From contig NC_013216.1 of NCBI RefSeq assembly GCF_000024205.1, forward strand, positions 4,216,001 through 4,280,000: a stretch of 64,000 nt of DNA, written 5' to 3'. Shown in pieces: positions 3,843-39,381 of the stretch. A model generated the notes under the pieces. It did no database searches, was not told the DNA's origin, and saw nothing but the letters and a program-made list of their open reading frames with translations. Within the stretch, counting starts at the first letter, position 1. Each line of letters begins with the position of its first letter. The stretch comes from Desulfofarcimen acetoxidans DSM 771 (GTDB lineage Bacteria; Bacillota; Desulfotomaculia; Desulfotomaculales; Desulfofarciminaceae). The position numbers were made by a program, and so were the translations under genes.

Positions 3843-3903
3843 TGTATTATCAAATTAAATCGTGTTGCATCTGAGTCTTTGTGAAAGAATAATCGGTAAT
3901 ATA

Positions 3904-4458
3904 TTACCGGGGCCAGACCCTAGGGAATGTAAGTATATTTTGACGGTATTTTACGGGGGTCAGACCGGTAAAAATTTGGAAAGAACGGTTTCTCTTTTCA
4001 AATTTTTTCGAGCACTGATACGGTACAACAATTTCCAAAGCAGGATGTGGTACAAATTTAAAATCGTCAGGGTTCCTTGTATATAAGGGAAGATCATTTA
4101 CAATTGCAGTAGCCGCAATATAACAATCTTCAATATGGTGATCTCGGTATTCTGCTGATTGACGAGAGAGTAAACCAGCAGTTCTAGCAACTTTTTGGTT
4201 CGTAGGTAAAACTCGAAAAAGTGTTGGCAAAAGCAATTGAGTTCTATTTTCCTCTTGTAAAGATATGTGTGGATACTGGAGTAATTCTTTTATACTATGG
4301 CAAGAAATGTATCTATTAACTCTTTCATCAATTAGTTTATCAATTAACGATACAGCCATTTTTGAATTAAATTCATACATTTTATTTTTTGGCCGCGATT
4401 TTCGATGACTTCTAAGCACATCAATTAAAATATTTGTATCAATAAGAACACTATTCAT
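3904..4458 (-). CDS. vapC: VapC-type PIN-domain toxin with a repeat-derived C-terminal tail
   Basis: This is a PIN-domain ribonuclease toxin. Residues 1-10 carry LIDTNILIDVL (first acidic residue). SIKELLQYP and HIEDCYIAATAI follow, with a final LYTRNPDDFKFV, the usual acidic set of the PIN fold. The body matches the 155-residue copy at about 17 kb up to VVPYQ. After that point this copy reads CSKKFEKRNRSFQIFTG and onward, which is the palindromic element translated backwards, ending 35 residues later. The element has replaced the last eight residues of the original protein (YSVQASF in the other copy). An antitoxin gene sits 8 bases upstream. Whether the altered tail affects toxicity is unknown. 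Confidence 0.85.
   Translation of the reverse strand: MNSVLIDTNILIDVLRSHRKSRPKNKMYEFNSKMAVSLIDKLIDERVNRYISCHSIKELLQYPHISLQEENRTQLLLPTLFRVLPTNQKVARTAGLLSRQSAEYRDHHIEDCYIAATAIVNDLPLYTRNPDDFKFVPHPALEIVVPYQCSKKFEKRNRSFQIFTGLTPVKYRQNILTFPRVWPR
3954..4014 (+). repeat. Palindromic element, type A, inserted in vapC
   Basis: GGGGGTCAGACC, then a stem AAAATTTGGAAAGAACGG with CTCTTTTCAAATTTTTT, then CGAGCA. The right end joins the vapC coding sequence at CTGATACGG, where the other vapC copy continues differently. A further single palindrome, GGGGCCAGACCC, stands 35 bases to the left. Confidence 0.9.
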
Positions 4459-10555: not shown

Positions 10556-10590
10556 GCTAATAAAGCCACAATGAACTGTAATTATTTAAC

Positions 10591-10687
10591 AAGGGTCTGC
10601 CCCTTATGAAAAAAATTATTTTACTAGGGACAGACCCTGGTAAAAATTTAGAAAGAATGCCTTTCTCTTTTCAAATTTTTTCGAGCA
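10591..10687 (+). repeat. Palindromic element, full type A
   Basis: AAGGGTCTGCCCCTT, a 20-base spacer, TAGGGACAGACCCTGG, then the stem AAAATTTAGAAAGAATGC with CTCTTTTCAAATTTTTT and a final CGAGCA. This copy shows the complete order of palindrome, palindrome, long hairpin. Confidence 0.9.
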
Positions 10688-14998: not shown

Positions 14999-15082
14999 TA
15001 TCTAATCACCTCTTTTTAGTAATCACTGTTAAATTGGTACGGGTTTGCTAATAAAGCTAGAATAAACTGTTAGTATTTACCA

Positions 15083-15192
15083 AAGATCTGACCTTCTTGA
15101 GTGAGAGCGAATAACTGGAAATGTTTTACTAGCAACGGGTCCCGGTAAACATTTGGAAAAAACGATTTTCTTTTTTCAAATGTTTACTAGCA
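15083..15192 (+). repeat. Palindromic element, type E hairpin
   Basis: AAGATCTGACCTTCTT, spacer, CGGGTCCCGG, then GTAAACATTTGGAAAAAACG paired with CTTTTTTCAAATGTTTAC, and TAGCA. Compared with type A an A-T pair is now C-G, and the stem is extended by TAC. Confidence 0.8.
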
Positions 15193-18491: not shown

Positions 18492-19868
18492 CTATGCCGG
18501 TTTAAGGCGGTGGTTCGTGTTGTGTGTATTGCTTAACCTGATAGCTTTATTCTCTACAACAGCTTGTCTACCAATAGAATAATACTCCACTCCGGCATCT
18601 TTCATATCTTCAATGTCATATATATTTCTACCGTCATATACCAGCGGTGTCCTCATTTGCTTTTTATAGTCTTCCGGCTTAACTGCTTTAATTTCGTCCC
18701 ATTCGGTGAAGATAAAGCAAACATTAGCACCGGAAAGTGCCTCCTCTGGGCTCTTAACGTAAGTAATCTTATGCTCACTCTCCGGATACTTCTGCCTAAA
18801 ATTATCACTACCCACGGGGTCATAAGCATATATCATTGCCCCTCGATCCAACAGCAGCGGAACATTTTCAAGTGACGGTGCTTCCCGCAAATCATCTGTT
18901 CCCGGCTTAAAGGTTAGTCCCAACACTGCCACCTTAAGACCATCAAAAGTAATTAGCCTGTTCGAAGCCTTTCTGTATAATACTGTTTTCAGGTCATTAT
19001 TTACCGTGATGGCAGCCTTAACCGTCCTTAGCTGATAGCCATTTTGCCTAGCTAGATAATCCAGTGCCTTAGTATCCTTGGGGAAGCAGCTACCGCCGTA
19101 ACCGATTCCGGCATTTAAAAATTTACTGCCAATACGTTCATCAAATGACATTCCCCGTGCTACGTCCTGGATATCTGCGCCTACAAGCTCGCAGAGGTTA
19201 GCAATGTCATTCATATAGGATATTTTTAAGGCCAAAAAGTCATTGGCAGCATATTTGATCATCTCCGCCGACCGTCTACTTACTGATACAACTGGTAGAT
19301 TAAATGGCTCATATATTTTCATGAGCATTTCCTCAGCCCATTTACTATCGTACCGATGATAATTCTTGCCGCCTCCAGAGTATCACGTACCGCTGTACCC
19401 TGGGCAAGAAATTCAGGATTACTAGCCACCTCTACTTTAACACTATTAACTAAAAAATCCTTAATAAATTGCTCTACTTTATCATTTGTGCCAACAGGAA
19501 CTGTTGATTTTACCACCACAAGGCAGTCCTTCTCTATGGTTTCTGCAATTTGCCTGGCGACGGTAGCTATATAGGAAAGATTGGCGGAGCCATCGGGCTG
19601 CTCGGGAGTACCTACACCTATAAAAACGGCGTCTGCATCTTTGTATGCCTGAATATAGTCTGTGGTAAAATCAAGCCTACCAGCAACATAATTTTTTCTG
19701 CATTAGTTCCTCTAATCCTGTTTCATAGATAGGAGAAATGCCTTGCTTAAGCATATTGACTTTTTGTTCATCGATATCAACACAAGTAACATTGTGACCA
19801 ACTTCGGCAAAACATACTCCGGCTACCAGACCTACGTAACCTGTACCGGCTACTGAGATTTTATGCAT
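18492..19868 (-). pseudogene. ugd: UDP-glucose 6-dehydrogenase, two single-base frameshifts
   Basis: Aligned with the intact gene at 31.2 kb this copy is closely similar but has one extra T in a T-run at 19692-19697 (after ELMQK) and one missing G near 19350 (ATCGTACC against ATCGGTACC). The N-terminal [12 protein letters not shown] and catalytic GYGGSCFPKD regions are otherwise preserved in different frames. Either a recent pseudogene or a sequence error is possible. It lies alone, with a palindromic hairpin at its 3' end. Confidence 0.85.
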
Positions 19869-23329: not shown

Positions 23330-23800
23330 CCATGATTATGAGTATGTTAATATATTTTATACTCTTACTAATTCTAATAATTACGGAAATTTATTATTGA
23401 GATTAGGTATGTAAAAATATTGGGCAAACATTACTTGAATTTGTTTCAGACGCTGACTGAAAAGGTATGGGTTTGTTGTTTACAGCTTATGGCAAACTTT
23501 TTTCTCTTGAGGTATTATGTTAGGAAGATTGATTTTTGAAACGGTCTCCTAGGGGATATTAGTTCTTTAGATTACACGCGCACTTCCGGTGAGGAGATTT
23601 TTATAAGCCAACCATACTGTACGAAAGATTAATTTGAGAATGTGTAATGGCTATCAACATTGCGAGTGTTGAATTCACAATTCAACCTATTGATAAAGCA
23701 ACTGGTAATCTTTAACGTGGGTCTGGAACTTATAAGTAGAAACTTGGCCATAAACATTTTATAGGCCTACCTTTTTGTAAATCAACTGTCACTATTTAAC
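23330..23800. other. Element flank with a MITE end
   Basis: Non-coding. TTTTTGAAACGGTCTCC at 23533-23549 followed by TA is a right end of the MITE family seen at 9372-9490, but I could not find its left partner. The leader sequence that usually precedes the palindromic element (AAACTTGGCCATAA) starts near 23740. Confidence 0.5.
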
Positions 23801-23867
23801 AAGGGGCTGACCCTAATGAGTGAAAATTTGAAAAGAACGATTTTCTCTTTTCAAATTTTTTCGAGCA
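23801..23867 (+). repeat. Palindromic element, type A
   Basis: AAGGGGCTGACCCT, then AAAATTTGAAAAGAACGA with CTCTTTTCAAATTTTTT and CGAGCA. Here the stem has G-C to A-T repair compared with the common GG form, making it better paired. It joins the second Rpn block. Confidence 0.88.
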
Positions 23868-23868
23868 T

Positions 23869-25371
23869 GAAAAGCTCATTCAACAATGAGATTAAATAGA
23901 ATAAATTTGCTCGCCACACAGACTGTCCCGACCTTACATACTTTTTTAGTACATAGGTCGCCGTGACTTTTACGTCCGGGCACACCGCAGTTTGTTACCT
24001 ACCTGCGTTCCGGATATGCTAATCAACTGAATCGGCTAATTGGTGATAGGCGACTTTCACGCCATTAGATTCTCAGCCTTGACGGCTGCTCCCGCACGGT
24101 CAGACCCTGATGAAAAATGTCGAATGCTTTCGGCATTTTTCCCGAGCACTAACAACATTTTATTAATCCCAAGGAATGTACTACTCTTAATGCAACTCGT
24201 TTTTAATTTTCTGTACAATTTCTTTATCCAGTGCAGTTATTTTACATATAACATCAACCGATATACCTTCTTTCAAGGCCGCCCTTGCTGTTTCTAAAGC
24301 CTTTTTCAACTCGCCTTCTTTTATTCCTTCCTTAATACCCTCTTTTATGCCTTCCTTAATACCCTCTTTTATACCCTCTTTTTTTGCCTGCTGCTGCATC
24401 TCATCTAGTGTTACCTCGAGGTTCATAATCATAAATTCCACCTCCAACTGGTTGGCTTCCTCCATAATGCGGTCAACTTCCTTATGCAAATGGACCGGCA
24501 TTCTCGGCTTGATGACATTTTTGAGCCAAATCATAATTTGCCTAAATTCATCCTGAGTTAGTTTTCTCAATACCATGATTAATTTCCTCAGGCGTCTAAT
24601 TAACTCCTTATGGTTCATTGTCTGATCCAGAACAAATACGCTGGCTATCAGGTTTGCCATTTCGTACAGTTGCTCATCTTTGTATCTGTTGACATCAAAC
24701 AGTATGTAATTAAAGTCCAGTACCCGCCCACCGAATATTTGATAGTCAGACAGCATTTCCCTGAAATTCATCTTTGCCGTCCAGTTGTTCTTGCCATTGT
24801 ACAATACCGCCGGTACTATAGCCGGCAGCCTAAAGTCTTTACGATCCCTTTCTTCTTTCTGTGTGTTATTGTACGTTTCTCTCCATATCTGCACCATGTA
24901 CTGCAGTAAACGAAAGGGCATCAGAAAATCTACAGTAGATTGTAACTCCAGCAGTACGTAGAATATGACATCCTTTTCCTTCGTCCGGAGCCGATACACC
25001 ACATCTGCCTCTTTTTCACTGAAATCTTCCAGCACGAATGACTTATCAACCAGGAGCAACCCATCTTCTTCTATTTCGTTTACCCAATCCTCTTGCACAA
25101 AGGTTTTGATTAATTCCAGAAATATCTTTTTATTGCTGAGAAGCTGCTTATAACCCTTGTCATGGGGATGGTGTGGATGTTTTAGGTTAGGTTGGCCACT
25201 TTCCGTCATGGGATCACTCCCTTCGTAATTATTATATCACATACTGCCAGTAAATGGTCATAGCATTATGAAATCCTTTTGTTGTAAAAGTGGATAATTA
25301 CCTCCGCAACTTTATCCTATTCTATTATTGGGTCCGATCTATTTGAAAAATTAATGTCTCCTCACCATTCC
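23869..25371. repeat. 1.5-kb duplicated Rpn block, copy 2
   Basis: Partner of 13074-14556. It includes the group II intron fragment (23904-24097), the type D hairpin (24098-24148) and the Rpn gene. The right end overlaps the last codons of dprA. Confidence 0.9.
24187..25209 (-). CDS. Rpn-family recombination-promoting nuclease / putative transposase, copy 2
   Basis: The 340-residue protein is the close duplicate of the gene at 13.4 kb, with the same PD-(D/E)xK family layout and start. The main difference is five instead of three KEGI tetrapeptides before ELKKAL, a 24-base in-frame expansion, plus scattered substitutions. It lies immediately downstream of dprA, where many Firmicutes have topA. 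Confidence 0.85.
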   Translation of the reverse strand: MTESGQPNLKHPHHPHDKGYKQLLSNKKIFLELIKTFVQEDWVNEIEEDGLLLVDKSFVLEDFSEKEADVVYRLRTKEKDVIFYVLLELQSTVDFLMPFRLLQYMVQIWRETYNNTQKEERDRKDFRLPAIVPAVLYNGKNNWTAKMNFREMLSDYQIFGGRVLDFNYILFDVNRYKDEQLYEMANLIASVFVLDQTMNHKELIRRLRKLIMVLRKLTQDEFRQIMIWLKNVIKPRMPVHLHKEVDRIMEEANQLEVEFMIMNLEVTLDEMQQQAKKEGIKEGIKEGIKEGIKEGIKEGELKKALETARAALKEGISVDVICKITALDKEIVQKIKNELH

Positions 25372-26457
25372 ACCAGCAAGCAGCTCTATTTTTCCTTCTA
25401 ACTCCATGGCACAAAGGATTCTTAGTAATGCTGACGGATTACTCCCTAATATACCGGCCAATTGTTCAACACTTTGTGGGATCGGGCTAAGGTGATCGTA
25501 GATTTCTTTTTCAATCTGTGATAATGGCGGTATTTCGTTAACTCTTTTGTTCCTGTGTGCCTCATTAGAGTTTATTCTTCGCTCATGCTTCTTTTGTCCC
25601 GAATCTAACAGCAACTGGTTAGGATGAAGATAAATTTTAGCACCTTTATGAATCAGTTGGTTACATCCAGTACTTTCCTGACTATATATCTGACCGGGTA
25701 CTGCCAATACTTGACGATTCTGTTTTTCTGCCAGTTGAGCAGTTATTAATGCCCCGCTTTTTTCTCCTGCTTCAACTATCAACAGCTTATTTGACCAGGC
25801 AGCAATCCACGTATTTCGCTGTGGAAAATGCTCGGCTCGTACCCTTGTCTGCGGCGGATATTCCGAAAGCAATACGCCTTCCTCAGCAATTCGATCCATC
25901 AAGCCACGGTGCTCTGCAGGGTAGCATACATCCACCCCACAACCTAAAATAGCTATCGTAAAACCACCTGCTTTGAGACAAGCCGTATGGGCATAACTGT
26001 CAATTCCCTTTGCCATACCGCTAATTACCGGAATATCTTGCTTTGCTAAAAAAGTGGCAGCTTCTTTAGTTACCTGCTTGCCGTAATCCGTACATCTCCG
26101 GGCACCGACGATACCCACCCCGGTACTGTTTGGCCAAAGGTTACCTCGATAATAGAATAGTACCGGTGCTTTTGAAAAATCTTTAACTTGTACCGGGTAG
26201 AGGGAATCATGATATGTCAATAAACGGATATTTTGTTTCTCTGTCCTGTCCAGGATTCGCCTGGCCTGTTCTAAGGATTTTGAAGCCTGGATTTTCTCAA
26301 CGGTCTTATTATTTATTCCGGCTATCGTCATTAATTCCGTTCCAGATGCCAGATAAATACTTTCCGGTGATCCAAACTTATCTAACAGCTTCTTTTGCAG
26401 AATTGGCCCAATACCTTTTAACTGCGTCAACCATATCCAATATTCTTTCACCATCAC
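25351..26457 (-). CDS. dprA: DNA processing protein DprA/Smf
   Basis: The 368-residue protein binds incoming single-stranded DNA and loads RecA during transformation. An N-terminal helix-hairpin-helix/SAM-like part is followed by the Rossmann-like core with VGIVGARRCTDYG, VISGMAKGIDSYAHTACL, GCGVDVCYP and EAGEKSGALITAQLA, and a C-terminal winged helix. The usual RNRIIAGLS is RNTWIAAWS here, a noticeable change in the ssDNA-contact loop. The start (GTG, or ATG three bases later) overlaps the comM stop. The last residues lie in the Rpn block. Confidence 0.9.
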   Translation of the reverse strand: MMVKEYWIWLTQLKGIGPILQKKLLDKFGSPESIYLASGTELMTIAGINNKTVEKIQASKSLEQARRILDRTEKQNIRLLTYHDSLYPVQVKDFSKAPVLFYYRGNLWPNSTGVGIVGARRCTDYGKQVTKEAATFLAKQDIPVISGMAKGIDSYAHTACLKAGGFTIAILGCGVDVCYPAEHRGLMDRIAEEGVLLSEYPPQTRVRAEHFPQRNTWIAAWSNKLLIVEAGEKSGALITAQLAEKQNRQVLAVPGQIYSQESTGCNQLIHKGAKIYLHPNQLLLDSGQKKHERRINSNEAHRNKRVNEIPPLSQIEKEIYDHLSPIPQSVEQLAGILGSNPSALLRILCAMELEGKIELLAGGMVRRH

Positions 26458-28001
26458 TAGATAGCCAGCATGGTCACACGGTCTTTATCCAAATCTCGGG
26501 ACATTAATGCGGCAGCAATATCCTGTTTTCGGATCTGCCTTGAACCCTCCAAATCGGCAAAGGTTCTCGCCACTTTTAGAAATTTATTAAAGGTTCTGGC
26601 GCTGTACTTAAATTTATCATGGGCCAGGCGCATAAGTCTCTTTCCATCCTCCTCCAGTAAGCAAAATTCTTTGACCAGTGCCTCCGTCATTTGTGCATTA
26701 CAATTTACACCAGGAGTGTTAACATAACGTTTTTGTTGTATTTGCCGAGCAAATTCTACTCTCTCCCGGAGTTGTGCTGAGCTCTTTACATTGCTTTGAC
26801 CTGATAAATCCAAGAAATCAACTGACTGAACATATTTTTGCAAATCAATACGATCTAAAATTGGCCCGGAAAGCTTCTGACGGTATTTCAGTACTTCATA
26901 ATCACTGCACCGACATTTATCTTGTCCATAATAACCACAGGGGCAGGGATTCATGGCAGCTACCAACATAAAGTTACTGGGAAATGTGCAAACACTTTTA
27001 ACACGGGAAATTGTAACCTGCTTGTCCTCCATAGGCTGGCGAAGGGCATCCAAGGTTTTTTTATTGAATTCAGCAATTTCATCCAGGAATAAAACTCCAT
27101 TATGAGCCAGAGAAATCTCACCGGGAATGATGGGACTACCGCCACCGATTAGAGAGTTTAGGGAGGCATTATGGTGAGGAGCACGAAAAAGACGACGTGT
27201 AATAAGTTCGTTCCGATCCTTAAGTAGTCCCGCTACGCTGTATACCTTGGTGATTTCAATTGCCTCTTCATCACTCAAGCTAGGCAGTATTGTCGGTATA
27301 CGCTTAGCAATCATTGATTTTCCACATCCGGGGGCACCTATCATCAGTATATTGTGTCCACCGGCTGCTGCGACCACAACATATTCAAGCAGAGTATCCT
27401 GCCCCTTAACATCCTGAAAATCTCCGCAATGATTTACTTCATCCAGAACAGAATCCTGTCCTTTTACCTCATCAGGAACAACATATGGGGCAGACCCGTT
27501 TAAATAATTAACCACTTCTTGTAGGTTGGAAAAGCCAAGAACATTAATATCTTTAACAACTGAAGCTTCTTTAATATTTTCTTTAGATACGATTAGTGTT
27601 CTAATTCCCTTATTGCGGGCAGTAACTGCCATTGGCAAAATGCCTATACATGGTCTTAAATCGGCATTTAGTGAGAGCTCACCAATAAAACCGAATTGCT
27701 CAACTTCAGGCACAGTAAGCTGGCCGGATTGAATTAACAAGCCTATTGCCATAGCTAGATCAAAATGGGATCCACTTTTTTTAAGGCTGCTTGGGGCCAA
27801 GTTAATCACGATTTTCATTTTGGGAAATTCATATTGGGCACAAGTAATAGCTGATTCTAATCTCTGCCGGGCTTCTTTCACTGCAGCATCGCCCAGGCCC
27901 ACGATGGCAGTGACGGGTTGCCCGTGCAGCGTCATGGTTTCTACGTCCACTAAATATCCATCAACACCGGCAATGGCAAATGAACGAACAACTACTGCCA
28001 T
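26457..28001 (-). CDS. comM: YifB/ComM-type Mg chelatase-like AAA+ ATPase
   Basis: The 514-residue protein has an N-terminal S5-like domain (DVETMTLHGQPVTAIVGLGD), Walker A GAPGCGKSMIAKRIP near residue 227, Walker B VLFLDEI, a cysteine-rich CPCGYYGQDKCRC insert and the C-terminal Mg-chelatase lid. ComM proteins are helicases aiding branch migration in natural transformation. The start ATG follows AGGGGC. It is coupled to dprA by overlapping codons. Confidence 0.92.
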   Translation of the reverse strand: MAVVVRSFAIAGVDGYLVDVETMTLHGQPVTAIVGLGDAAVKEARQRLESAITCAQYEFPKMKIVINLAPSSLKKSGSHFDLAMAIGLLIQSGQLTVPEVEQFGFIGELSLNADLRPCIGILPMAVTARNKGIRTLIVSKENIKEASVVKDINVLGFSNLQEVVNYLNGSAPYVVPDEVKGQDSVLDEVNHCGDFQDVKGQDTLLEYVVVAAAGGHNILMIGAPGCGKSMIAKRIPTILPSLSDEEAIEITKVYSVAGLLKDRNELITRRLFRAPHHNASLNSLIGGGSPIIPGEISLAHNGVLFLDEIAEFNKKTLDALRQPMEDKQVTISRVKSVCTFPSNFMLVAAMNPCPCGYYGQDKCRCSDYEVLKYRQKLSGPILDRIDLQKYVQSVDFLDLSGQSNVKSSAQLRERVEFARQIQQKRYVNTPGVNCNAQMTEALVKEFCLLEEDGKRLMRLAHDKFKYSARTFNKFLKVARTFADLEGSRQIRKQDIAAALMSRDLDKDRVTMLAI

Positions 28002-28027: not shown

Positions 28028-28597
28028 TCATTGGTCATTAAGTGTGCTCTTTCTTCTATCTTGACGTGGAGTTTCTACATATTTTTTATACAATGAAGCA
28101 TCGGAATTCGGAAAATAGGCTAATATTTTCTCCGTTGTAACGAGAGGATCTGTCTCTACCCCCATATAAACAGAATAACTGCTCCACGGATAATCCAAAG
28201 GGTGTTCCACTATATGTGCATCAACCGGGTTTAGATGAATATACCGGCTTATTTCCAGTTGATAATTATCAGTTTTAATTAACTCATCCCGAAATCGTCC
28301 TTGAAAAAGATGTCCTACAAAATTGTACTTTTTATTAAAAGAGACAGCATACTGCATGTTAATAAGTTTCATGATCTTGCTGATATCCATATCGCTGGTT
28401 TCTAAATGAAGATGAACATGGTTACTCATCAAGCAGTAGGAATGAAGAAGAAAACGGTAGGACTTTTTAGCCCATGCTAAAATCAGTAAATATGATTGGT
28501 AATCTTCCTCATCACGAAAAATATTGTGTCTATGGTTACCTCTACACATTACATGATAGGTAGCTCCAGGATACCAGACCCGGGGTTTTCTAGGTAT
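28028..28597 (-). CDS. REP-associated tyrosine transposase (RAYT), with an ATA start codon
   Basis: This Y1 HUH-type transposase has the metal-binding SNHVHLHLE, QYAVSFNKKYNFVGHLFQGRF with the probable catalytic tyrosine, and RYIHLNPVDAH, all typical of RAYT proteins. Homologous N-terminal residues (IPRKPRVWYPGATYHV) continue upstream of the first ATG at 28549 to an ATA codon placed 7 bases after GAGGAGG. ATA is therefore the likely original start position, making 189 residues. Whether it is used, or the gene is translated poorly from the internal ATG, is unclear. It sits in the middle of the zone rich in palindromic elements. Confidence 0.82.
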   Translation of the reverse strand: MPRKPRVWYPGATYHVMCRGNHRHNIFRDEEDYQSYLLILAWAKKSYRFLLHSYCLMSNHVHLHLETSDMDISKIMKLINMQYAVSFNKKYNFVGHLFQGRFRDELIKTDNYQLEISRYIHLNPVDAHIVEHPLDYPWSSYSVYMGVETDPLVTTEKILAYFPNSDASLYKKYVETPRQDRRKSTLNDQ

Positions 28598-29186
28598 GGT
28601 AAACCCTCCTCAATATTTTTTAGGGACCAGGACGCAATTTCATTTGATTGTATTAAATAAGGCTACCTAAAAACACAAAATTTAAATATTTTTAAGTTCT
28701 TAAGGAATATTATATCATTATTACCAGTTAGCTAAAAGAGTTATTTGTCGTTTATAAATATAATGAACATGATAACAACGAAGATTTTGCCATACAAAGA
28801 CATTGATTGAAAACATTAAGGCAGGCTAAGGGTGCCTGCCTTTTGCTTACAAATAAAGGTATTGTACAAGAATCCTTTCAAATCCCGGACAACATACAAC
28901 GTTATCATATTCGATTTGTTTACTGGGGACAAACCCGGTATTGGTTCCCATATGATGCGATATGTATAAAATCCTTACCCCTACTATGTATGTAAATTGC
29001 AAAATTTTACTGGGGTATGTCCATAGCTAGTGAATTTACGTGTGGCTCTTTCATCCCCTTCTCTATGCCGGTTTATCCCGATGCTTTCGGACAGACACCA
29101 GTTAAGACCTTAGAAAGAAACTAAACCGTAACATTTTGTATCATGCTGGTTCTACCTCTTTACGAAATCAACTGTTAGCATTTAAC
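28598..29186. other. Intergenic, terminator repeats only
   Basis: Contains a GGCAGGC hairpin terminator at 28820-28844 in the same flanking context as in the vapBC blocks, ending in a degraded palindrome. No gene is supported. A 62-residue plus-strand frame here is a by-product of the repeat. Confidence 0.55.
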
Positions 29187-29297
29187 AAGGGGCTGACCCT
29201 CTTGAGTGAGAGTGAATAATTGGAATTATTTTACTAGGGTCAGGCCCCGGTAAAAATTTGGAAAGAACTGTTTTCTCTTTTCAAATTTTTTCGAGCA
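29187..29297 (+). repeat. Palindromic element, full type A
   Basis: AAGGGGCTGACCCT, spacer GAGTGAGAGTGAATAATTGG, TAGGGTCAGGCCCCGG, the AAAATTTGGAAAGAACTG stem with CTCTTTTCAAATTTTTT, CGAGCA. It is preceded by the leader CTACCTCTTTACGAAATCAA shared with other full copies. Confidence 0.9.
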
Positions 29298-29375: not shown

Positions 29376-29478
29376 TTGGGTCTGACCCTTATCAGTATGA
29401 GTGAGCGAATATTTACTGGGGCCAGACCCTAGTAAAGATTTGGAAAGAACGATTTTATCTTTTCAAATCTTTCGAGCA
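29376..29478 (+). repeat. Palindromic element, full type A
   Basis: TGGGTCTGACCCTT, spacer, CTGGGGCCAGACCCTAG, AAAGATTTGGAAAGAACG with CTTTTCAAATCTTTCG and AGCA. Both arms have changed (AAATTT to AAGATTT, and AAATTTTT to AAATCTTT), keeping the pair. It runs up to the start of the next gene. Confidence 0.9.
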
Positions 29479-29804: not shown

Positions 29805-30173
29805 ATATGCGGGACTGACTGACGGATTGACTGAGTCTATTTTAATCTAATTATTCTAGTCTAAATTAAAGTGACCGGTAACACCAAGTCCTGAAACTTC
29901 TTTGAATAGTCTTAACGGTAATATTAAAATACCTTTCAAAGACCGGGATCAGTACATTGGTTTTTCGATAATAAAGATTACGTACGTACTAAAAAGAGCC
30001 AACCAGCATGAAGGATGGTTAACTCTTTTTGTCTTTTTTCTATGACACTAACCCTAAGGAATAGTTGTTTTCTTGTGGTCTGACCCGAAGCAATGTATAA
30101 GTAGTAACTTAACCATAAGTTTTTATATCATACTGATTCTACCTCTTTGCGAAATCAACTGTCAATATTTAAC

Positions 30174-30295
30174 AAGGGCCTAACCCTCATAAGTGAGAAC
30201 GAATAATTGGCATTATTTTACTATTATTTTACTAGGGACAGACCCTAGTAAAAATTTGGAAAGAACACTTTTCTCTTTTCAAATTTTTTCGAGCA
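30174..30295 (+). repeat. Palindromic element, full type A
   Basis: AAGGGCCTAACCCT, spacer with a duplicated TTTACTATTA, AGGGACAGACCCTAG, the AAAATTTGGAAAGAACAC stem with CTCTTTTCAAATTTTTT and CGAGCA. About 75 bases of shared leader precede it. Confidence 0.9.
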
Positions 30296-30974: not shown

Positions 30975-31143
30975 AAAAATGCCCTGTCATGGGGAAGGAG
31001 AAGCTATGTCTATTTCAGCATAAATGATGGCTAAAATCTTTTTGTCTTTTTTTTTGACACTAAACCCAAGCAATTTACAAGTAGCAACTTAACCATAACA
31101 TTTTGTATCATGCTGATTCCACCTCGAACTGTCATTATTTAAC

Positions 31144-31231
31144 AAGGATCTGACACTCATGAATGAGAGTGAGTGATTGGAATTATTTTACTAGGAATAG
31201 GCACCAGTAAAAATTCAAATTTTTTTGAGCA
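31144..31231 (+). repeat. Palindromic element, shortened type A
   Basis: AAGGATCTGACACT, spacer, AGGAATAGGCACCAG, then AAAAATTCAAATTTTTTTGAGCA where the stem middle has been deleted. It ends 9 bases after the stop codon of the opposite-strand ugd gene. Confidence 0.8.
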
Positions 31232-31240
31232 ATTCTTAAC

Positions 31241-32617
31241 TTAAGCACTATATAGGCGGTGGTTCGTGTTGTGTGTATTGCTTAACCTAACAGCTTTATT
31301 CTCTATAACAGCTTGTCTACCAATAGAATAATACTCCACTCCGGCATCTTTCATATCTTCAATGCCATATATATTTCTGCCGTCATATACCAGCGGTGTC
31401 CGCATTTGATTTTTATAGTTTTCCGGCTTAACTGCTTTAATTTCATCCCATTCGGTGAAGATAAAGCAAACATTAGCACCGGAAAGTGCCTCCTCTGGGC
31501 TCTTAACGTAAGTAATCTTATACTCACTCTCCGGATACTTCTGCCTAAAATTATCACTACCCACAGGGTCATAAGCATATATCATTGCCCCTCGATCCAA
31601 CAGCAGCGGAACATTTTCAAGTGACGGCGCTTCCCGCAAATCATCTGTTCCTGGCTTAAAGGTTAGTCCCAACACTGCCACCTTCAGGCCATCAAAAGTA
31701 ATTAACCTGTTCGAAGCCTTTCTATATAATACTGTTTTCTGATCATTATTTACCGTAATGGCAGCCTTAACCGTCCTTATCTCATAGCCATTTTGCCTGG
31801 CCAGATAATCCAGTGCCTTGGTATCCTTGGGGAAACAGCTACCACCGTAACCGATTCCGGCATTTAAAAATTTACTACCAATACGTTCATCAAATGACAT
31901 TCCGCGTGCTACGTCCTGGATATCTGCACCTACAAGCTCGCAGAGGTTAGCAATGTCATTCATATAGGATATTTTTAAGGCCAAAAAGTCATTGGCAGCA
32001 TATTTGATCATCTCCGCCGACCGCCTACTTACAGATACAATTGGTAGATTAAATGGTTCATATATTTTCATTAGCATTTCCTCAGCCCATTTACTATCGG
32101 TACCGATGATGATTCTCGCTGCCTCAAGAGTATCACGTACCGCTGTACCCTGGGCCAGAAATTCAGGATTGCTAGCCACCTCTACTTTAACATTATTAAC
32201 TAAAAAATCCTTAATAAATTGCTCCACTTTATCATTTGTACCAACAGGAACTGTTGATTTTACCACCACAAGGCAGTCCTTCTCTATTGTTTCTGCAATT
32301 TGCCTGGCGGCGGTAGCTATGTAGGAAAGGTTGGCAGAGCCATCAGGCTGCTCGGGAGTACCTACACCTATAAAAACGGCATCTGCATCTTTGTATGCAT
32401 GGATATAGTCTGTGGTAAAATCAAGCCTACCAGCAACATAATTTTTCTGCATTAGTTCCTCTAATCCTGTTTCATAGATAGGAGAAATGCCTTGCTTAAG
32501 CATATTGATTTTTTGTTCATCGATATCAACACAAGTGACATGGTGACCAACTTCGGCAAAACATACTCCGGCTACCAGGCCTACGTAGCCTGTACCGGCT
32601 ACTGAGATTTTATGCAT
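31241..32617 (-). CDS. ugd: UDP-glucose 6-dehydrogenase, copy 2
   Basis: The 458-residue enzyme oxidises UDP-glucose to UDP-glucuronate with two NAD+. It has the Rossmann motif [20 protein letters not shown] at the N-terminus, VVVKSTVPVGTNDK, the catalytic GIGYGGSCFPKDTKAL and the C-terminal VLGLTFKPGTDDLREAPS domain. It is intact, and nearly the same as the frameshifted copy at 18.5 kb. It lies apart from the main capsule genes, next to a BNR-repeat protein. The product would supply glucuronic acid for the exopolysaccharide. Confidence 0.95.
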   Translation of the reverse strand: MHKISVAGTGYVGLVAGVCFAEVGHHVTCVDIDEQKINMLKQGISPIYETGLEELMQKNYVAGRLDFTTDYIHAYKDADAVFIGVGTPEQPDGSANLSYIATAARQIAETIEKDCLVVVKSTVPVGTNDKVEQFIKDFLVNNVKVEVASNPEFLAQGTAVRDTLEAARIIIGTDSKWAEEMLMKIYEPFNLPIVSVSRRSAEMIKYAANDFLALKISYMNDIANLCELVGADIQDVARGMSFDERIGSKFLNAGIGYGGSCFPKDTKALDYLARQNGYEIRTVKAAITVNNDQKTVLYRKASNRLITFDGLKVAVLGLTFKPGTDDLREAPSLENVPLLLDRGAMIYAYDPVGSDNFRQKYPESEYKITYVKSPEEALSGANVCFIFTEWDEIKAVKPENYKNQMRTPLVYDGRNIYGIEDMKDAGVEYYSIGRQAVIENKAVRLSNTHNTNHRLYSA

Positions 32618-32825
32618 GGTGCTTTAACCTTCCTTTTCATTTATATTTAAGATATTAATACAGGAGTTATACTCTATTGGCAACGTCTTAATATAAATCT
32701 GACAACAGTATGTATTTTAGTTGCATAGAGGACAAGAACTCTTATAATCCTGGACGAGATAGGTCAACAATATATTGTATCGTGTTAGATCCTCCCGTTT
32801 GGAAAAGCAGCTGGTAATATCTTAC

Positions 32826-32940
32826 TAGGGACTGACCCTTATGAGTGAGCATGAGTGATTGAATGGTATTTATTTACTGGGGCCAGACCCCAGTAAAAAT
32901 TTGGAAAGAAAGCTTTTCTCTTTTCAAATTTTTTCGAGTA
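32826..32940 (+). repeat. Palindromic element, full type A, inside a coding region
   Basis: AGGGACTGACCCTT, spacer, CTGGGGCCAGACCCCAG, AAAATTTGGAAAGAAAGC with CTCTTTTCAAATTTTTT and CGAGTA. The right half is the 3' end of the opposite-strand gene, where it replaces the native C-terminus. This is the last copy before the long capsule region. Confidence 0.92.
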
Positions 32941-38004: not shown

Positions 38005-39381
38005 TTAAGCACTATAAAAACGTTGATTTGTGCTGTACTTATTGCTTAAATTAATAGCTCGATTTTCTACTACAGCTTGTCTTCCAATAGAATAATACTC
38101 CACTCCTGCATTTCTCATAGACTCAATACCATAAATATTCCGGCCATCAAATACCAGCGGCGTCCGCATCAGATTTTTATAGTCCTCCGGCTTAATTGCT
38201 TTAATTTCGTCCCATTCGGTGAAGATAAAACTTACATTAGCATCGGAAAGAGCCTCCTCTGGTTTCTTTACGTACTTAATTTTATACTCACTCTCTGGAT
38301 ACTTCTGCCTAAAATTATCGCTGCCGACAGGATCATAAGCGTATACCCGTGCCCCTCGCTCCAATAGTAATGGAACATTTGCAAGAGAAGGAGCCTCCCT
38401 TAAATCATCCGTCTCGGGCTTAAATGTCAATCCCAATACTGCTACCTTCAGACCATCAAAAGTAATTAGCCTATTTGAAGCCTTTCTATATAAAATTGTC
38501 TTCTGATCATTATTTACCATAATAGCAGATCTAATAGTCCGTAGCTCATAACCGTTCTGCCTGGCCATATAATCCAGTGCCTTAGTATCCTTAGGGAAAC
38601 AACTACCACCATAACCGATACCGGCACTTAAGAATTTACTGCCGATACGTTCATCAAATGACATTCCTCGCGCTACATCCTGAATATCTGCGCCAACAAG
38701 TTCGCATAGATTAGCAATGTCATTCATATAAGATATCTTTAATGCCAGAAAGTCATTGGAAGCATATTTAATCATCTCCGCCGAACGCCTACTTACCGAT
38801 ACAATTGGTAGATTAAATGGCTCATATATTTTCATAAGCATTTCCTTAGCCCATATACTATCGGTACCTATGATGATTCTCGCCGCCTCCAGAGTATCGC
38901 GTACCGCCGTACCCTGAGCTAGAAATTCTGGGTTACTGGCAACCTCTACTTTAACATCATTAATTATAAAATCCTTAATAAACTGCTCCACTTTATCATT
39001 GGTCCCAACTGGAACTGTTGATTTTACTACCACAAGACAGTCTTTCTCTATAGTTTCCGCAATTTGCCTTGCAACGGTAGCTATGTAGGATAGATTGGCA
39101 GAACCGTCGGGCTGCTCGGGAGTACCTACACCAATAAAAACGGCATCTGCATCTTTGTAGGCTTGAATAAAATCTGTAGTAAAATCGAGCCTACCTAGGG
39201 CGGAATTTTTCTGCATCATTTTCTCCAATCCTGTTTCATAGATAGGAGAGATACCTTGTTTAAGCATATTAATTTTTTGTTGATCAATATCGACACATGT
39301 GACATGATGACCAACTTCAGCAAAACAGACTCCGGCTACCAGACCTACATAGCCCGTACCGGCCACTGATATTTTATACAT
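38005..39381 (-). CDS. ugd: UDP-glucose 6-dehydrogenase, copy 3
   Basis: The 458-residue protein has [44 protein letters not shown] and LTFKPETDDLREAPS (Glu in place of the Gly of the other copies). It is the most diverged of the three and lies in the capsule cluster between galE and the galU relic. Its retention beside an intact second copy suggests either redundancy or different regulation. Confidence 0.94.
   Translation of the reverse strand: MYKISVAGTGYVGLVAGVCFAEVGHHVTCVDIDQQKINMLKQGISPIYETGLEKMMQKNSALGRLDFTTDFIQAYKDADAVFIGVGTPEQPDGSANLSYIATVARQIAETIEKDCLVVVKSTVPVGTNDKVEQFIKDFIINDVKVEVASNPEFLAQGTAVRDTLEAARIIIGTDSIWAKEMLMKIYEPFNLPIVSVSRRSAEMIKYASNDFLALKISYMNDIANLCELVGADIQDVARGMSFDERIGSKFLSAGIGYGGSCFPKDTKALDYMARQNGYELRTIRSAIMVNNDQKTILYRKASNRLITFDGLKVAVLGLTFKPETDDLREAPSLANVPLLLERGARVYAYDPVGSDNFRQKYPESEYKIKYVKKPEEALSDANVSFIFTEWDEIKAIKPEDYKNLMRTPLVFDGRNIYGIESMRNAGVEYYSIGRQAVVENRAINLSNKYSTNQRFYSA

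Follow-up and report, generated by a model that had tools for sequence, protein, structure and literature searches.

Two pieces of general background bear on the gene described here: REPs are spread genome-wide, and AUA is a very rare and poor start codon, against which IF3 normally discriminates. The REP-associated tyrosine transposase (RAYT) of E. coli, TnpAREP, binds and cuts single-stranded REP (PMC8266576). TIRYTs are RAYT-like genes with flanking terminal inverted repeats, which contain the motif GGGGWSAS (Di Nocera 2013, PMC3733652). Most TIRYTs fall in subclass 2.1 of the TnpAY1 proteins, which carries the signatures NHVH, FQ and Y[IV]HLNP, and no repeats were found beside subclass 2.1 genes in the same study (Quentin 2018, PMC6006769). 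As to the start codon, infC, ccpN and citZ of S. aureus have AUA starts, extended Shine-Dalgarno motifs are present at infC, ccpN and cvfC1, and reporters of AUA/AUU sites in this species yielded about 10% of the AUG output, with ccpN reaching up to 30% in rich medium (PMC13009471). It is very rare for bacterial genes to have a conserved AUA start, and our literature search found no description of a transposase with an AUA or AUU start.

Relationship of the gene to described Y1 transposases

The window, i.e. the whole stretch of DNA analysed, comprises 64,000 nucleotides (positions 4216001-4280000) of the complete 4.55-Mb genome of Desulfofarcimen acetoxidans DSM 771 (G000). A RAYT coding sequence of the Y1/HUH, TIRYT-like type lies on its minus strand at 28028-28597; it is a single open frame of 189 codons, and its first codon in the window sequence is ATA. 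The initial annotation had recognized a RAYT by the motifs NHVHLHLE and RYIHLNPV, and this identification is borne out: the HUH motif NHVH occupies residues 59-62 (28412-28423, minus strand), YIHLNPV occupies residues 119-125 with Y119 (28241-28243, minus strand) as the candidate catalytic tyrosine, and the Pfam profile Y1_Tnp matches the protein with 54.2 bits (cut-off 23). The combination of the HUH and Y---NP motifs is that of the class 2 TnpAY1 proteins (RAYT/TnpAREP) in the published signature table (PMC6006769). With the NCBIfam profile for REP-associated tyrosine transposases, NF047646 (cut-off 80 bits), the protein scores 72.7 bits and the closest named homolog (L041, Dethiobacter, 58% identity) 81.8. 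The structure model of the protein is of low confidence (mean pLDDT 49).

Judged by these signatures, the protein is closest to the TIRYTs and subclass 2.1. Like the TIRYTs (TIRtrons), it is a RAYT-like Y1 protein, has close relatives flanked by GGGGWSAS repeats, on both sides in G061, G084 and L041, and is accompanied by related repeats elsewhere in its genome (33 element matches of the GGGTCTGACCC type). It differs from them in the absence of GGGGWSAS terminal repeats at the gene, in its AUA start and in the dense local zone of palindromes. Likewise, it contains all of the NHVH, FQ and YIHLNP signatures of subclass 2.1 (Bertels group 1; Quentin 2018, PMC6006769), but it has 189 residues and no C-terminal helix-turn-helix domain, Y1_Tnp being the sole domain found by Pfam. 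Full membership in TIRYT/subclass 2.1 therefore fails, because the gene-proximal repeats and the C-terminal domain are absent. With E. coli TnpAREP and its REP (4er8) the gene shares the family, the HUH motif with one tyrosine and a presumed hairpin nuclease activity; however, no GTAG- or GTGG-footed REP hairpin was found within 1 kb of it on either strand, a feature that is not valid for all RAYT subclasses, and the palindromes are of the form GGGGWCWGWCCCC. The IS200/IS605 TnpA proteins belong to the same Y1 transposase superfamily, but an identity with them was rejected, as the gene has Y---NP and not their Y---Q motif and scores 22 bits with the IS200 TnpA profile NF033573 (cut-off 55). 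In addition, no IS ends were found.

The ATA start codon and its conservation

The in-frame context of the start is TGA GGA GGG TTT ACC ATA CCT AGA AAA. The ATA (28595-28597, minus strand) follows, at a distance of 7 nt, a Shine-Dalgarno sequence GAGGAGG (28605-28611, minus strand), and an in-frame TGA (28610-28612, minus strand), also present in G001, overlaps the latter, which rules out a start upstream of the ATA. The first in-frame ATG is codon 17 (28547-28549, minus strand), and between the upstream TGA and this codon there is no in-frame ATG, GTG, TTG, CTG, ATT or ATC. The sole possible full-length start is thus the ATA. The description of the ATA as lying 7 bases past GAGGAGG, with 16 conserved codons before the first ATG, was accurate, and the residues before that ATG are conserved in homologs starting with ATG exactly at the ATA position. 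At the start, the RNA has no unusual structure, its folding being no better than that of shuffled sequences.

For a comparison of start codons, as the initial annotation had proposed, we searched 100 relatives, of which only one (G001), a member of another genus, shares the family; genome searches at the class level and at the order level give an identical set of 113 genomes. The RAYT of G001 is 74% identical at the protein level, has ATA at the same codon, and is preceded by TGAGGAGGG, again with a spacing of 7 nt. Furthermore, the 12-nt block ATTGAGGAGGGT, which includes the Shine-Dalgarno sequence, is identical in the two genomes, and the leader farther upstream does not align. Nineteen other close homologs (48-66% identity) start with ATG (15), GTG (2) or TTG (2), so that ATA at this position is confined to two genomes; their RAYTs group together in the tree (SH-aLRT 97), where one change suffices to explain the ATA. 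Between these two genes, dN is 0.166 and dS 1.90 (NG86), with dN/dS of 0.09, and dS is near saturation, which points to a long divergence but gives no exact time. The two genes differ at 38 first, 24 second and 79 third codon positions, and there are no stops in 183 aligned codons; in a simulation with 141 random substitutions the frame stayed open in 0.3% of cases, and stayed open with the ATA kept in 0.1%. Since ATA is common to both genomes and purifying selection is strong, selection has acted on the encoded protein during a time in which the gene already had its ATA start. The same two genomes start infC with ATT after GGGGGTGA (L077, L078), and therefore do make use of a type of start codon disfavoured by IF3. 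A sequencing error behind the ATA was rejected, as ATA is found in three places in two genomes. A search for further AUA cases found no viral relative, and plasmid relatives among the matches listed are less than 40% identical.

The initial annotation had left two readings of the ATA side by side, a rare and strongly limiting start or a near-silencing of the enzyme by a G-to-A change. The latter would make the gene a decaying pseudogene and its repeat neighbourhood a relic. It would agree with ATG as the probable ancestral codon on the tree, with the loss of the gene-proximal terminal repeats, and with the location of the duplicate, whose segment is rearranged and has a broken comM. It is nevertheless highly improbable, as ATA also occurs in another genus at a dS near 1.9 with dN/dS of 0.09 and no stops, an open frame would arise by chance under neutrality with a probability of about 0.003, and the Shine-Dalgarno block is identical in both genomes. 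In view of the strong purifying selection between two ATA genes, the ATA is best interpreted as a weak start that has been conserved, and of the two readings the rare, limiting start is the one supported. Translation of a shorter protein from ATG17, with the ATA not being a protein codon at all, is also improbable. Although no standard start codon precedes ATG17 in the frame and most close homologs have M at this position, several have V, I or T there, and the position is therefore not a conserved start; a start at ATG17 would drop PRKPRVWYPGATYH, which is conserved in the homologs with ATG at the ATA position, and residues 2-16 show the same degree of conservation as in those homologs. By inspection, there is no Shine-Dalgarno sequence at a proper distance ahead of ATG17, whereas a strong one is placed and conserved for the ATA. 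In addition, ATG17 falls inside the predicted strand beta-1, according to a weak alignment to 4er8 (E 0.025) and the low-confidence model (pLDDT 49).

The gene resembles the AUA genes infC, ccpN and citZ of S. aureus (PMC13009471) in the combination of AUA with a strong Shine-Dalgarno sequence, and in conservation across relatives, which holds for ccpN. By sequence, it has a lone full-length in-frame start and a proper Shine-Dalgarno sequence, both conserved across genera. The S. aureus genes, on the other hand, are host regulatory and metabolic genes, whereas the window gene is a transposase.

Palindromes in the genome and around homologous genes

The elements in the window, which carry two GGGTCTGACCC-type palindromes and a AAATTTGGAAAG hairpin, were located with nhmmer; a regex scan misses most copies. 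Their palindromes, GGG(T/A)C(A/T)GACCC, agree with the motif GGGGWSAS, which GGGGTCAG fits. The nearest full element (29170-29297, plus strand), with the palindromes GGGGCTGACCC (29189-29199) and GGGTCAGGCCC (29237-29247) plus the AAATTTGGAAAG hairpin, begins about 570 bp upstream of the RAYT gene and is adjoined by a second element (29377-29478, plus strand). Further elements, all on the plus strand, are located at 30158-30295, 31127-31231 (hairpin part deleted), 32810-32940, 23779-23867 (shortened), 15065-15192, 10575-10687 and 3892-4014. No palindrome was found within 400 bp of the window copy of the gene, which, as noted before, is not flanked by full elements. A genome-wide count of GGGNCWGNCCC gives 43 occurrences. 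Of these, 23 fall in the 61 kb (4187.5-4249 kb) that include both RAYT copies, where 0.6 would be expected. The 33 BLAST matches of the element, which lie nearly throughout on the plus strand, comprise 21 in the RAYT zone, 9 in a second zone at 392-536 kb, where no RAYT of the window type was found, and 3 elsewhere. Many palindrome copies are carried by segmental duplications; the segmental duplications in the zone start exactly at the right ends of elements (window positions 4014, 12940 and 23867).

Palindromes also cluster around homologous genes in other genomes. In the 17 genomes with a close homolog, the regions up to 30 kb from the RAYT gene contain at least 69 palindromes against 4.4 expected; the 30-kb limit was chosen once the data had been seen, and the copies counted are not independent, because some were duplicated along with their neighbours. 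At least one palindrome lies within this distance in at least 9 of the 17 genomes (3.4 expected), and when G000, which had attracted notice through its repeats, is excluded, the count is at least 46 against 3.5. G001 has a repeat family of its own, represented by 6 copies in the 12 kb surrounding its RAYT, and all 7 exact copies of GGGGWCWGWCCCC in its genome lie within 23 kb there. The spelling of the palindromes is specific to the genome, being GACTGAC in G001 and G196, GACAGTC in G086 and G111, and GTCAGAC in G061 and G084. In G061, G084 and L041, GGGGTCTGACCCC or a copy with one mismatch flanks the RAYT homolog on both sides, and inverted pairs with two mismatches are present at the homologs in L031 and L040. 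The palindromes are dispersed in two other genomes, with 42 copies in G382 and 10 in G457, none of them within 30 kb of the gene among the matches listed. As a separate observation, G196 (L070, L076) has two RAYT copies with identical proteins at a distance of 9.7 kb, and their contig contains 12 GGGGACTGACCCC palindromes. Among the 100 relatives, with kinship ignored, exact GGGGTCWGACCCC is found in 27 of the 75 that encode a RAYT-like protein and in 3 of the 25 that do not, and two or more exact copies are found in 18 of the 75 and none of the 25.

These data bear on whether the palindromes have anything to do with the enzyme. They might instead be independent of it, being multiplied by segmental duplication or by another transposase, or being terminators, with both gathering in surface-polysaccharide islands. 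The many copies that ride segmental duplications speak for such independence, as do the second zone without a RAYT and a GGGGTCAGACCCC cluster in G052 (L079:5430-12624, L080:2653-6247), a genome with distant Y1 proteins only and no close RAYT. Polysaccharide-type genes are common to both AUA-gene regions, and the joint neighbourhood could therefore add to the association. We consider independence rather unlikely, however, given the repeats on two sides of the homologous genes in G061, G084 and L041, the identity of the palindrome motif with the published TIRYT repeat consensus, the clustering in at least 9 of 17 genomes with genome-specific spellings, and the presence of a RAYT-like Y1 protein in every genome with two or more exact palindromes. 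The link between the RAYT and the repeat family, put forward at the outset as a hypothesis, is thus supported, but not proven, by these sequence comparisons. Genomes that have the elements and lack any RAYT had been named as a refuting case, which is borne out in part by the G052 cluster and the 392-536 kb zone, and neither excludes the link.

Proposed mode of action and surroundings of the gene

The best reading of the locus appears to be a TIRYT-like RAYT with low expression, no longer flanked by repeats of its own, that sits amid a local population of its presumed substrate. Probably, then, this is a functional enzyme of the TIRYT type, whose AUA start would give a low dose and whose surrounding palindromes would form a non-autonomous local population. 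The strong Shine-Dalgarno sequence would select AUA as the start of translation, and little RAYT would be made, because AUA is a poor start disfavoured by IF3; a low dose has probably been maintained on purpose ever since the common ancestor of the two genera. The product, a putative single-tyrosine HUH nuclease, would probably bind single-stranded hairpins of the GGGG(W)C(W)G(W)CCCC type. By analogy with E. coli TnpAREP, it may bind the GGGGWCWGWCCCC hairpin when the DNA is single-stranded, make a cut next to it via Y119 and rejoin the ends. The both-side repeats of its relatives have been lost at the window gene, and its self-mobility is therefore probably gone. After this loss the RAYT could have become a resident enzyme with the palindromes around it as its substrate; these would persist as a non-autonomous population and spread locally. 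More tentatively, the long-kept AUA start may couple the dose of the RAYT to IF3, and a low dose together with local action may confine the palindromes to tens of kilobases, unlike REPs, though we hold this extension to be somewhat doubtful.

New in comparison with the described systems are the conservation of the AUA start and the presence of a local zone of palindromes. If real, an AUA start would be a simple way for a cell to restrain a domesticated transposase. Furthermore, the local swarms of palindromes at homologous genes make the question of the substrate of TIRYT-type RAYTs directly testable, each genome offering an enzyme and a genome-specific substrate that are both defined.

The stop codon of the RAYT gene is followed after 26 nt by an intact comM-like Mg-chelatase gene (26457-28001, minus strand) and then by a dprA-like gene (25351-26457, minus strand). 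Upstream of the gene, TGATATAAT (28709-28717, minus strand) resembles an extended -10 promoter with a weak -35; it was noted by inspection only, and the promoter scan did not list it. A terminator-like hairpin (28818-28842, minus strand) is located about 220 nt upstream of the ATA, and another is present in the RAYT leader of G001 (L047:10191-10216), roughly 30 nt before the Shine-Dalgarno sequence; such hairpins in both leaders would likewise hold the expression of the RAYT low. The second RAYT copy (4208627-4209193) lies 35 kb off in a duplicated segment that contains RAYT, comM and dprA, and differs by 2 nt in the gene, with ATA again as the start. The comM of this segment has a 408-bp deletion (L009:979-981 versus window 26474-26882). 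The window also contains three UDP-glucose/GDP-mannose dehydrogenase-like copies (18492-19328, 31241-32617 and 38005-39381), which are about 85-95% alike, the open frame of the copy at 18492-19328 being shorter than the other two.
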